From Streptomyces sp. L-9-10 (GTDB taxonomy: Bacteria > Actinomycetota > Actinomycetes > Streptomycetales > Streptomycetaceae), in NCBI RefSeq assembly GCF_004151105.1, contig NZ_PHRF01000064.1:124001-188000 (forward strand): a stretch of 64,000 nt of DNA, read 5' to 3'. The position numbers and the translations under genes were made by a program. The notes under the pieces were generated by a model. It saw only the letters and a list, made by a program, of their open reading frames with translations, was not told the DNA's origin and did not search any database. Within the stretch, counting starts at the first letter, position 1. Each line of letters begins with the position of its first letter. Positions 52,526 to 55,629 of the stretch are shown here, piece by piece.

Positions 52526-54004
52526 ATGCCCGGAGACCGCCCCACCCTGCCGCCGGTGCGACTGCTCTCGGAAGCGGAGCTGGCGCGGGACGCGCTCGCC
52601 GCGCCACTGCTCGCCCGCGCGGTACGGCTCGCCCGCTGGGCCGGGCCGACGACGCGCGTGGGAGCCGGCGGCGAGCTGGTCGACGAGCAGCTGCCCGCCG
52701 CGGCGGAGGTGCTCGGCCTCGGGGACGAGCTCTCCGAGGGCGACGGCGAGGCGTACGCCGGCGAGGCATGGCGGGTGGCGGTCGACACGGGCCTCGTGGA
52801 GGTCGACGACCCGGACGAGAACGGCGGGCCGGACGGCGCCGCCCCCGACACCGAAGGCCGTGTCACCACGGGCGAGCAGCTCGGAGTGCTCACCTCCGGC
52901 GGCCCGCAGGACATCCTCTCGCTCTGGCTGGACGCCCTGGACGTCGTCTTCGCCGACGCGACCGCGCCCGTGCTGGACGATCTGGCCGCGGCCATCGGCG
53001 ACGACGGCGAGATCGATCTCGACTCGCTGGACTGGGATCCGGAGCTGGAGGCGGAGTTCCTGGAGGGCGTCCTCGGCAACCTCTATCTCCTCACCCTCGT
53101 GGAGGGCGGCGGTGAGGGGCCGGTACCCCTGCCCGTCCTCGCCGCGTCGATGATCGTGCCCGACGACATGGGCGAGCCCACCGACGACATCCTTGAGCAG
53201 GTGTCCGAGGCGATGATGCGGCTGGACGACCAGTTCCGGCTGCTGGAGCCGATCGGACTCGTCTCGTACGTACCCGTCGACGAGGCGCTGATGGTGGAGG
53301 ACACGGAGGACGGCCCTGACGCGTCGCTGCCCGTCGGCGAGGAGGACGTCGCCCGGTACGGGATGGTCCGGCTGACGCCGCTCGGGCTCTACGGGATCAG
53401 GTCCCGGATGCTGGAGGCGGGGGTCGACGCGCCCGCGGTGGGCGACCTCGCGGACAAGGACGCGCACGCGCTGCTGGACGGCGTCGCGCACTTCCCCGAG
53501 CTGTCCGCGCGAGCGGAGACCGAACAGTGGCTGACCCGGCGCGCGCCGGCCGACGCCGCACGCGAACTCCTCACCGCCGCACGCGGCACGGACCCGGGCG
53601 CGCCGCTGCGCCGCCTGCACTGCCAGCAGGCGCTGTCGCTGGTGGGCGCGGAGGCGGAGGCCGCGGTACGGGAGGTCCTGGACGACGCCGAACTGGGCGG
53701 CCTGGCGCGGGTCTGGCTGGCCGAGCTGGGCGCGGGTGACGTGCCGCCGCCGCCCGAGTCGATGATCTTCTGGCTGGCCATCGACACGATCGCCGCGCAG
53801 CTGGACGCGGAGGGGGAGCCGGACGAGCTCCAAGAACTGGTCGAGGGCCTGGTGGGGCAGCACAGCGGGTTCTTCGAGGCGGCGTGGCGGGTGGAGCATC
53901 CGGCGACGGCGGAGGTGCTGGAGGCGATGGGGAGGCTTCATCGGGACAGGGCGGCGTCGAAGGACGCGCGCAAGGCGGCGTTCAAGGCGAGGTCGCGGGG
54001 GTAG
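52526..54004 (+). CDS. Hypothetical acidic, helical protein
   Basis: I do not recognise a named family for this 492-residue protein. It is strongly acidic (for example EIDLDSLDWDPELEAEFLEGV), has no signal peptide or membrane helix, and appears mostly helical. The C-terminal half contains a segment reminiscent of HEAT-like helical repeats (CQQALSLVGAEAEAAVREVLDDAELGGLARVWLAELGA). It ends in a basic tail (HRDRAASKDARKAAFKARSRG). AAGGAGA lies 9 nt before the ATG. It is followed by a repeat-rich island of 860 nt. Confidence 0.72.
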   Translation: MPGDRPTLPPVRLLSEAELARDALAAPLLARAVRLARWAGPTTRVGAGGELVDEQLPAAAEVLGLGDELSEGDGEAYAGEAWRVAVDTGLVEVDDPDENGGPDGAAPDTEGRVTTGEQLGVLTSGGPQDILSLWLDALDVVFADATAPVLDDLAAAIGDDGEIDLDSLDWDPELEAEFLEGVLGNLYLLTLVEGGGEGPVPLPVLAASMIVPDDMGEPTDDILEQVSEAMMRLDDQFRLLEPIGLVSYVPVDEALMVEDTEDGPDASLPVGEEDVARYGMVRLTPLGLYGIRSRMLEAGVDAPAVGDLADKDAHALLDGVAHFPELSARAETEQWLTRRAPADAARELLTAARGTDPGAPLRRLHCQQALSLVGAEAEAAVREVLDDAELGGLARVWLAELGAGDVPPPPESMIFWLAIDTIAAQLDAEGEPDELQELVEGLVGQHSGFFEAAWRVEHPATAEVLEAMGRLHRDRAASKDARKAAFKARSRG

Positions 54005-54082
54005 GGGGCGGTCGCCGGGGTGCGGTTGCGGTTGCGTTGTCGTGGGCCGGGGGCCGGGGTCTCCGGAGGCGCATGTCCGGAC

Positions 54083-54150
54083 GGCATGATGTACGGCGCG
54101 ACTCTGCCTTGTCGTTGGTTCGGGCGTCCGCGCGCCACACATCACGCTTT
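54083..54150 (+). repeat. 68-bp foldback repeat, copy 1
   Basis: The segment is an imperfect palindrome: its first 25 nt (GCATGATGTACGG...) pair with its last 25 nt (...CCACACATCACGC), leaving a short loop around GTCGTTGGTTCGG. A second copy with about 59 of 67 positions identical lies in opposite orientation 340 nt downstream. Confidence 0.8.
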
Positions 54151-54490
54151 AGTGTCCGAACACGCACCTCCTACGCCCCCGACCCCCTCCCGCCGGTGGG
54201 TCCCCGCAACCCGCCGACCTGGGTGGGGGTGTGGGGGTGGTGCGGCCCGGTGGTCATGGCAAATCGCCGTCTCGGAGGAGGCGAGTGGGCTGGTGCGGTC
54301 CGGTATGCCCCGCCACTCGCCGCCTCGGCGAGGGTTAGCGGGCAGGGCGTGATCCGGTGGGCCTCACCCGCTGCTCTGGTAGCGGACCGGGTGGGGAGTG
54401 TGCCGCCGCCTCCCCCGCCCGCCCTCGCGCTCGGCCCCGTCGCTTGTGCGGGCGGTGAAGGGGGGCGCGCAGGGGTCGTGGCCGGGACGT

Positions 54491-54558
54491 AGAGCGTGAT
54501 TTGTGGCGCGCGTACGCCCGAACCATCGACCGGGCGGAGTCGCGCCGTAAATCATGCA
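54491..54558 (-). repeat. 68-bp foldback repeat, copy 2 (inverted)
   Basis: This is the inverted partner of the copy at 54083. Its own arms also pair (GCGTGATTTGTGGCGCG with the complement of the far end), so it can form a hairpin alone or a long cruciform with copy 1. Confidence 0.8.
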
Positions 54559-54582
54559 GTCCCGGGCGCGAGCCCCGGAGCG

Positions 54583-54829
54583 CACCCCGGACCACATGCC
54601 CGCACCCGGAAACCGGCCCCAGCTGAAGACGACCGCACCCCGGACCACATGCCCGCACCCGGAAACCGGCCCCAGCCGAAGACGACCGCACCCCGGCGAC
54701 AACCCGCACCCGGAAACCGGCCCCAGCTGAAGACGACCGCATCCCGGACCACATGCCCGCACACGGAAACCGGCCCGGCCGGAGACGAGCGCGTACCGGA
54801 CCACGAGCCCGCACCCGGCGACGTACGCG
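54583..54829. repeat. 53-bp tandem repeat, four copies plus a remnant
   Basis: Units begin at 54583, 54636, 54689 and 54740, with a degenerate fifth from 54792. Units 1 and 2 are nearly identical; unit 3 lacks 2 nt and unit 4 lacks 1 nt. The core CCCGCACCCGGAAACCGG occurs in the first three units and, with one change, in the fourth. There are no unique spacers, so this is a minisatellite rather than a CRISPR. Confidence 0.85.
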
Positions 54830-54864
54830 CGCTTCCCGCCGAGGCGGACCCGGACCACGCCCGC

Positions 54865-55629
54865 TCACCGCAGGTGCGACGCTCCGTTGAGGTCCAGGAT
54901 CGTTCCCGACGACCATTCCGCCCCCGGCGACGCCAGCCACACCACCGCCCCCGCGATCTCCTCCGCCGTGCCCACGCGCCCGAACGGGCTCTGCGCGCGG
55001 ATCGACTCGCCCTCCTCGCCCGTGAGGCGGGACGCCACGCGTTCCGTGGTGAAGAAGCCCGGGGCCACGGACGCGACGGCGATGCCGTGCGGGGCCAGGG
55101 AGACCGCCAGGGACTGGCCCAGGGCGTGGACCGCCGCCTTCGTCGCGCCGTAGGCCGGGTGGTCCGGTTCGCCGCGGAACGCGCCCCGGGAGCCGATGTT
55201 GATGATCCGGCCGGGCGTCGCGCGGTCGATCATGGAGCGGGCTGCGCGGTGGCTGAGCAGGGCCGTGCCCAGCAGGTTGACGGACAGGTGGCGCTGCCAG
55301 GCCGCCGCCCAGTCGTCGTAGGACGTGGTGGGCAGCGGGTGGGGCTCGTTGACGGCCGCGTTGTTGACGAGGATGTCGATCCCGCCGAGCGCCTCGGCCG
55401 CCTCGTCCGCGACGCGCGCCGCGCCCGCCGGGTCGGCGATGTCGCCGCCCACCAGCGCGTGGCCGGTGCCGGCCAGCGACTCCAGGGTGTGCCGGGCGTC
55501 GGCGGAGCGGGTCGCGTAGTGGACGGCGACGTGGTCGCCCTGCGCGGCGAAAGCGCGGGAGACGGCGCGGCCGAGGCCGCGGGACGCGCCGCTGACGAGG
55601 ACACGGCGGCCGGTGGACGGCAGATTCAT
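54865..55629 (-). CDS. Short-chain dehydrogenase/reductase
   Basis: This 254-residue classical SDR enzyme has the cofactor motif VSGASRGLGRAVSRAF, IDILVNNAAVNEP, the catalytic Ser in NIGSRGAF and YGATK (Tyr/Lys pair), with APGFFTTERV following. The Arg after the second Gly suggests NADP preference. The end (WSSGTILDLNGASHLR) resembles FabG-like enzymes. Substrate unknown. ATG 55629 with GAGAGG 11 nt upstream is chosen; a longer frame from 55665 adds 12 residues. Confidence 0.9.
   Translation of the reverse strand: MNLPSTGRRVLVSGASRGLGRAVSRAFAAQGDHVAVHYATRSADARHTLESLAGTGHALVGGDIADPAGAARVADEAAEALGGIDILVNNAAVNEPHPLPTTSYDDWAAAWQRHLSVNLLGTALLSHRAARSMIDRATPGRIINIGSRGAFRGEPDHPAYGATKAAVHALGQSLAVSLAPHGIAVASVAPGFFTTERVASRLTGEEGESIRAQSPFGRVGTAEEIAGAVVWLASPGAEWSSGTILDLNGASHLR

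Follow-up and report, generated by a model that had tools for sequence, protein, structure and literature searches.

The palindromic repeats closest to those described here are the REP sequences and the doublets that they form. REPs are 20-40 nt long and have a terminal GTAG or CGTC tag; in the REPIN or BIME, REP doublets are moved by RAYT, a Y1 HUH transposase that recognises the tetranucleotide and the hairpin as single-stranded DNA, and the REPIN tetranucleotide faces outward. The pneumococcal BOX elements are also a modular, hairpin-forming intergenic repeat, with modules arrayed in tandem. According to passages of PMC3116915, inverted doublets are favoured among REPINs or BIMEs (93% of 430 doublets), singlets are present beside doublets, the spacer and the pair are predicted to form one hairpin, and the elements constitute within-genome populations that lie outside genes. 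Another relevant element is ERIC, also named IRU or RU-1, which is presented in parts of PMC2229807 and PMC10969869 as a 127-bp enterobacterial palindrome with a long stem-loop, located in intergenic regions and forming within-genome families; the review gives no proven transposase for it, and its table includes a 7-bp TIR, TA ends and target duplications. Likewise, part of PMC3733652, a text in which the word Streptomyces is absent, describes the CGTC-tagged REPs as palindromic repeats of 20-40 bp, frequently found as dimers, with no dedicated transposase found. ERIC and the CGTC-tagged REPs are palindromic repeats without a known transposase and without a proven way to spread, which gives a wider interest to the repeats analysed here.

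Two foldback repeats present in a stretch of 64,000 nucleotides from Streptomyces sp. L-9-10 (hereafter the window) are members of a large and apparently unnamed hairpin family, scattered 3' of genes in many Streptomyces. Judged by analogy, this family appears to work like a REPIN, with inverted doublets and singlets, built from palindromes of the size of ERIC. It shares with REPIN/BIME the preference for inverted doublets (39/39 here), the singlets beside doublets, the prediction of the pair and its spacer as one hairpin, the within-genome populations and the location outside genes. It differs in that its units are several times longer (120-160 nt), no RAYT is present in 6 of the 10 carriers searched, the doublets consist of two unit types (A and B) with exchangeable cores, and almost no divergent-promoter positions are occupied; in addition, the GTAG or GTAA of these units is internal, whereas the tag of a REP is terminal. 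In contrast with the description of ERIC, with which the comparison was made, no TIR, TA ends or target duplications were shown for the Streptomyces units, and ERIC is not known to form doublets of fixed polarity; the likeness lies in the size, the long stem-loop, the intergenic location and the families within genomes. The CGTC-tagged REPs are similar in being palindromic, often dimeric and devoid of a dedicated transposase, and differ by their length of 20-40 bp. The likeness to BOX lies in the modular, hairpin-forming and intergenic character of the repeat; nevertheless, in Streptomyces the outer stem is common to the units and it is the cores within it that are exchanged. No description of the family was found in the open-access papers searched, also with words from the core and flank sequences; the family is absent from the passages concerned of PMC1590033 and PMC11678152, and PMC6006769 has no mention of Streptomyces.

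The reading that we favour, with a probability of roughly 0.55, is that the pair would represent one copy of a modular family of foldback repeats, non-autonomous and located in the 3' regions of Streptomyces genes, in which selection would act on the folded strand. Sequence comparison shows directly how many copies there are and how they are paired, polarised and placed, as well as their covariation and the asymmetry of their strands; mobility and function are inferred.

The inverted pair in the window

The two copies lie at 54083-54150 and 54491-54558, where an earlier note on this DNA had located them, and are 88% identical, in opposite orientation, over the first 73 nt (query from 54079 against the reverse strand of 54490-54562). 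They belong to an ungapped inverted pair with arms of 115 nt that are 77% complementary (54079-54193 and 54448-54562). The earlier note also regarded each copy as an imperfect palindrome, and this was borne out; however, the extent that it gave was too short, given that outer arms lengthen the palindromes to about 54043-54192 and 54449-54598, i.e., each copy is a palindrome of approx. 150 nt when these arms are counted. The interval between the copies, taken to be free of genes, has no gene call. The pair is placed between two convergent genes, one on the plus strand (52526-54004) with no Pfam family at E<=0.001, and the other on the minus strand (54865-55629), which encodes a short-chain dehydrogenase/reductase (PF13561, PF00106).

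Both units have the type of core that we named core 1. Unit A (54057-54178, minus strand) matches R1 with 107.7 bits (E 1.9e-19) and unit B (54463-54584, plus strand) with 125.4 bits (E 5.8e-23); in both, the strand that folds better reads outward from the spacer. To the left of unit A, an outer arm of its palindrome was seen in the 150-nt fold at approximately 54043-54056, and is conserved among the A copies of this genome. Further out, at 54023-54043 of the plus strand, a region that starts with GGTTGCGGTTGCG is probably the left end of the composite, since it resembles the left end aligned in G344 and the left flanks of A in this genome; its boundary is approximate. The spacer (54179-54462), whose length varies between pairs, has an inverted repeat of its own (54267-54288/54313-54334). 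In unit B the asymmetric internal loop GTAGA (54489-54493, plus strand) faces a lone A at 54558; below it is GGAC/GTCC (54485-54488/54559-54562) and above it the upper stem, whose 5' strand, GCGTGATTTGTGGCGC (54494-54509, plus strand), pairs with 54542-54557.

Folding of 78-nt RNA segments gave z scores of -5.1 (plus strand) and -3.2 (minus strand) for unit B, and of -2.9 (minus strand) for unit A; the plus strand of unit A alone has no unusual structure (z only -0.9). When 150-nt segments were folded with DNA parameters, the better strands reached -4.6 (A) and -5.1 (B), and the other strands -1.8 (A) and -2.0 (B). Folded in full, the A-spacer-B segment is predicted to yield a single hairpin (z -11.9), so that A and B could pair on a transcript that crosses the pair. 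No match above the Rfam gathering score was obtained for positions 53800-55000 of the window and six loci; a known RNA family was discarded, as nothing came near this score and the weak matches to microRNA families were taken as chance. Likewise, no intrinsic terminator formed by a hairpin and a T tract was detected at 53900-54950.

Architecture and folding of the unit

The unit is a palindrome of about 120-160 nt with three parts: an outer stem that covaries, a core that is almost invariant and contains an asymmetric internal loop, and a tip that varies. These features were defined from 37 units of 34 genomes aligned with MAFFT; each genome contributed the best-scoring unit that left room for the flanks, and three of them a second type as well. 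The sequence of the outer stem varies while pairing is kept: 93.3% of the cells in the alignment pair, and double changes occur in 14 of 29 pairs. The 81 double-change cells exceed the 26.6 (sd 5.4) expected from shuffles, none of 500 reaching 81, and the covariation score was 0.232 as compared to 0.069 at most for slid control structures; the number of further pair types was no higher than in the shuffles (29 versus 27.1, reached by 110/500). The structure tested was obtained with RNAalifold from the same alignment with nine pairs added by eye, a procedure that favours the tested version over the slid ones. Single pairs switch widely, e.g., between C-G (17) and U-A (16), or C-G (16) and G-C (13). 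Taken together, these comparisons indicate that evolution has preserved the hairpin shape.

Above the outer stem, the internal loop reads GUAAA, GUAGA or ACUAAA opposite one base, and separates GGAC/GUCC from an upper stem that hardly varies (GCGUGAUKUGUGGCGC / GCGCCGUAMAUCAUGC). In this stem, three pairs are mostly G-U (34/34, 35/37 and 25/31 of the sequences with letters at these positions), and become A-C mismatches on the opposite strand. The strand represented by the model was the more stable one in 162 of 172 units, by a mean of 9.9 kcal/mol, whereas the same was true for 47 of 95 random 122-mers; by genome mean it was better in 32 of 35 genomes. Therefore, one strand is favoured, either as RNA or as single-stranded DNA. 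These data bear on a different proposal, i.e., that the palindrome is a dimer-binding site in double-stranded DNA for a nucleoid or recombination protein, with which the dyad symmetry of the conserved core would agree. A duplex site needs no covariation, no variation of the tip and no inequality of the strands; for this reason the variable length of the tip, the outer stems that covary without conservation of sequence, and the G-U pairs on one strand that are A-C on the other make this proposal extremely improbable.

Distribution of the family in Streptomyces

A query of 82 nt taken from the first copy detected 27 copies at 19 places of the same genome (E<1e-4), in the form of eight facing pairs and 11 other copies, one of which (C161:406242) is oriented toward a unit whose core differs and was named core 2. 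The earlier note had considered that the lack of further copies would indicate a local accident; this is ruled out by the 27 copies, and the observation is far from chance. Two unit types recur in this genome, and the pairs are formed by A followed by B, facing inward; the outer stem of type A is CCTCCGGAGG...GTCCGGAC and that of type B is CGCTCCGGGG...GTCCGGGAC.

Copies were also found in other Streptomyces: a covariance model built from 16 units gave matches at E<=0.01 in 72 of 392 Streptomyces genomes, including the one studied here, in a search that scored nine places per genome, which makes the copy numbers lower bounds. In the order as a whole, 36 of 245 genomes showed matches at E<=0.001, and all of them belong to Streptomyces, one of the eight genera sampled. 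Some genomes are rich in matches, with 23 in G344, 17 in G354, 18 in G074 and 9 in G098 at E<=1e-4, and 32 in G225, 33 in G173, 32 in G356, 14 in G165, 11 in G241 and 9 in G089 at E<=1e-5; these figures refer to matches, and in some cases the two strands of a palindrome were counted separately. Pairs predominate in G344 and G354, G225 has eight pairs and about sixteen single matches, and G074 and G098 have single units only at the threshold used (E<=1e-4). The many copies, the inverted pairs of a single polarity and the compensatory changes lend support to the earlier suggestions of a REP-like family and of a structured RNA or cruciform; the third suggestion, a non-autonomous mobile cassette, is plausible.

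The query of unit A gave no match in plasmids and that of unit B none in phages, and an origin in either was discarded. A 17-base core pattern was present in 13 viral contigs, yet none of them holds a unit at E<=1, and a second core pattern had no viral matches.

Polarity and spacing of the doublets

All 39 neighbours separated by less than 800 nt, in eight genomes, have the better-folding strand directed outward from the spacer, and the figure is 47 of 47 over all the loci examined, many of which were chosen because two close matches had been listed there. Possible exceptions outside these loci are two neighbours of equal polarity in G389, with gaps of 626 and 715 nt (E 2.5e-6 to 6e-5); no neighbours of reversed (inward) polarity were seen among the matches listed in the order-wide search. 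The gap is near constant within some genomes and different between genomes. From start to start, nine pairs of G344 are separated by 190-197 nt and five of G354 by 188-197 nt, with gaps between units of 62-76 nt in both (one more gap of G344 measures 362 nt); the gaps are 91-94 nt in G225, 76-287 nt in the eight pairs of the genome studied here, and about 350-560 nt in G356.

Location relative to genes

The 128 distinct sites from 46 genomes comprise 60 between convergent genes, 66 between codirectional genes (39 and 27) and 2 flanked by divergent genes, and none of them overlaps a gene call; i.e., 126 of the 128 are located 3' of at least one gene, with a median distance of 95 nt from the unit to the stop codon. 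Of 240 unit-bearing loci, 113 yielded no site of their own, being duplicates or having one side without a called gene. As background, the window and four pieces of S. scopuliridis contain 34 intergenic regions that measure 100 nt or more, of which 11 were divergent; this gives a binomial p of 7e-19, a value that depends on a limited background and on a gene caller of our own making.

To judge by the translations, the sites that recur in several genomes include those at cobT-cobA, at trkA and at a convergent pair of ABC and MFS genes, among others. The unit located 3' of cobT is sense to this gene in G004, G224, G162, G318 and G375 (L031, L045, L050, L060 and L061), and antisense in G074 and S. 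scopuliridis; the five sense units cluster by site, as expected of a vertically inherited copy. Overall there is no sense bias, given that single units in codirectional regions were sense in 20 of 46 cases, which counts against a strand-specific RNA acting in cis.

The placement of the units, their proximity to stop codons and the shared orthologous sites, such as that 3' of cobT, would all fit a host-evolved 3'-end module, i.e., a noncanonical terminator or decay barrier that is homogenised at fixed sites and is immobile; also in its favour, Streptomyces terminators identified by Term-seq have long stable hairpins with few Us, according to part of PMC12207403. However, near-identical copies at unrelated sites, numbers that go from no match to 33 matches depending on the genome, empty orthologous sites and the lack of sense bias speak against immobility at fixed sites, and make this alternative unlikely.

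Orientation relative to the replication origin is uneven, since 43 of 66 units point toward oriC over seven genomes (p 0.019), with 15/18 in G074 and 3/9 in G098; this tally was made among the matches listed for some genomes, and facing pairs were left out. The data neither support nor exclude a mechanism acting on the single-stranded DNA of the lagging strand. In C1 of G074, the single units point to dnaA/oriC in 15 of 18 cases, a lean that the other genomes do not clearly reproduce.

A small gene for a putative membrane protein is found between B and A, 485 nt apart from start to start, in L142 (G344), and beside B in L151 (G354); it looks like a host gene and not like cargo.

Homogenisation and exchange of cores

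The comparison of sequences also reveals a restriction to one genus within the order, homogenisation within genomes, exchange of cores and inversion in place. Of the 140 units that represent the ten best-sampled genomes (172 units overall), 136 had their nearest relative within their own genome. The nearest relative of our strain among the genomes compared is G511, taken as Streptomyces scopuliridis RB72, in which the genes next to the pair of the window are 95% identical. No fewer than eight sites of our genome, nine with L005/L039, carry sequence of the family at the equivalent position in S. scopuliridis; some of these are truncated, some have core 2, and L002 has only one neighbour in common. 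The S. scopuliridis loci were chosen by their match to the window element.

A tree was obtained for 35 near-full-length units, 20 from our genome (one of which is window B read on the other strand, and was ignored) and 15 from S. scopuliridis, after chimeric and truncated units were dropped. In this tree, A units form sister clades by genome, and B units are mostly split by genome, less cleanly than A, with L027_1475 and the diverged L026 grouping with S. scopuliridis. Among the 14 A and 15 B units chosen for the calculation, mean identity within each genome was 0.93 and 0.91 for A and 0.87 and 0.87 for B, and between genomes it was 0.83 (A) and 0.78 (B). At three shared sites with intact units, orthologues were 0.83, 0.81 and 0.75 identical, versus 0.87-0.98 for the three best paralogues within their own genome, and the sequence neighbouring these units is 84-94% identical between the two. 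Since paralogues are more alike than orthologues at shared sites, the copies are subject to concerted evolution within the genome. Because at least nine sites are common to S. scopuliridis, part of the pattern corresponds to old copies kept alike by homogenisation rather than to fresh transposition.

Repeated reinsertion into hot spots is a less economical account of the shared sites. Hot-spot insertion could explain them, because at one shared site A and B are in opposite order in G000 and G344, as read by eye. Nevertheless, at the L011/L275 site a block is inverted in place between our genome and S. scopuliridis, and orientation at shared sites was discarded as uninformative about independent insertion. 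In copy L024, the left half of an A unit is joined to the left half of a B-type unit, a junction as would be expected from template switching between inverted copies.

The cores are exchanged on a common outer stem. In the A unit of S. scopuliridis at the window site, the outer stem and the loop are kept and the apical hairpin is replaced by core 2. This core accounts for 5 of 8 matches in our genome and for many of the 44 in S. scopuliridis, a number that includes fragments and shared outer stems; in ten other genomes the core 2 query matched only G225 (1) and G028 (7), over the shared outer stem alone, core 1 being present there where the locus was read. A third core, a near-perfect hairpin, stands by itself in L295, and in the A'/B' copies half of this core takes the place of one arm. 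Cores 1 and 2 have a common foot, GGAC-GUAAA-GCG, with the loop GTAAA likewise below core 2, and for this reason it is suggested that the loop is the recognised part.

Empty sites and the search for a transposase

The empty sites invoked by the earlier note were found in part: at the window site both neighbours are kept and the pair is missing in G006, G023 and G085, although no empty site can be read exactly. The gaps there measure about 314, 282 and 144 nt, respectively; the model has no match in G006 and G023 and one marginal match in G085 (16.7 bits, E 0.057), where the gap contains another hairpin-like repeat. No target duplication or clean ends were found in flanks that are mosaics of other repeats and empty sites that do not align to the base. 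The ends of the composite are approximate and show a weak terminal similarity, GGTTG.GG.

The Y1/RAYT family (PF01797) is absent at E<=0.001 from six of ten copy-bearing genomes (G000, G344, G354, G074, G173 and G225), for which mobilisation by RAYT was rejected; it may operate in the four that carry PF01797 (G098, G257, G278 and G356), a family also found in one of ten genomes without a model match. That the units are a REPIN/BIME moved by RAYT would agree with this distribution of PF01797, with the inverted doublets and singlets, the within-genome populations, the GTAG or GTAA that many units have at the base of their upper hairpin and the orientation lean of G074; against it are the six genomes without the enzyme, the size of the units (120-160 nt, not 20-40) and a tetranucleotide that here faces the spacer, and we regard it as quite unlikely.

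Many copies, no coding capacity and inverted ends are features that the family shares with a MITE, i.e., in the classical sense, a deletion derivative of a DDE insertion sequence, moved in trans, in which A and B would be the long terminal inverted repeats. The near-constant length of the composite within G344, G354 and G225, the G000 pairs of differing spacer length, the empty sites and the weak similarity of the termini are in line with this origin. However, G074 and G098 have single units only at the threshold used, the conserved part is the interior core and not the ends, and target duplications were not seen. No transposase was found in the stretches between facing units 0.3-2.3 kb apart in G344, G356 and G165, which by eye contain spacer or host-like genes only, nor, mostly by eye, in the flanking genes. 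Three genes between units analysed with Pfam encode a rhodanese, an aldo/keto reductase (between units of the other polarity 3 kb apart) and a product of no family; from this inspection of the pair-enclosed stretches, an autonomous copy was discarded. On balance, the MITE origin seems rather doubtful.

A possible mode of spread and action

According to the reading of a modular family selected as a folded strand, units exist alone or as inverted A/B doublets that can also fold into one giant hairpin, and the outer stem is free to change provided that pairing holds. The hairpin would form 3' of genes, above all between convergent ones, on the transcript or on single-stranded DNA during replication or repair. 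Initially, a trans-acting or recombination process may have spread the units; template switching or gene conversion between copies would then homogenise them, swap their cores and flip them in place. Finally, the folded strand may mark or protect the 3' ends of transcripts or block read-through between convergent genes, which would explain why almost only 3' positions are occupied. A role at 3' ends is reasonable by analogy, because of the hairpin terminators of Streptomyces mentioned above (PMC12207403) and because overlapping convergent transcripts (cutoRNAs) are common according to part of PMC3765725, which allows for unknown ways of handling the conflict; repeats at sites of convergent overlap would represent a concrete candidate boundary.

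A bolder version, possible but held only tentatively, is that of a genus-wide palindromic repeat system that lacks its own transposase, in which the conserved asymmetric loop on the covarying stem would be recognised, the apical hairpins would be swappable cargo, copies would be spread and rewritten by mutual templated conversion with the A and B arms homogenised separately, and the host would use the hairpins to insulate convergent genes. Sister species that have sites but not sequences in common make it feasible to separate conversion from transposition, in a genus that is genetically tractable. The family also carries a warning, i.e., that a single copy should not be taken for a locus-specific regulator.

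Assembly breaks and adjacent repeats

Several contigs of G028 and S. scopuliridis end in or next to a unit; for this reason draft assemblies probably under-count the family, and the repeats may explain assembly breaks at unit sites.

Other repeats are located beside the units. On the outer side of unit B, at 54586-54869 of the plus strand, there are five degenerate tandem repeats of approx. 53 nt, which are a separate repeat with two families (D1 and D2); about one copy of it is present in S. scopuliridis, and comparable sequence is also found after B elsewhere in our genome. A further palindromic repeat, which has CCGGCG(A/T)TTGAGG as its core, adjoins many units of G344 and G074 (flanks of L133-L141 and L153-L168), and a relative of it is present in the element-free site of G085. 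Another conserved stretch, in which GGTACGAGCGAATCGAGCAC and/or CGAACCGAGCCC precede a run of A, is found after single A or B units in our genome and in G028 (L003, L007, L014 and L033).
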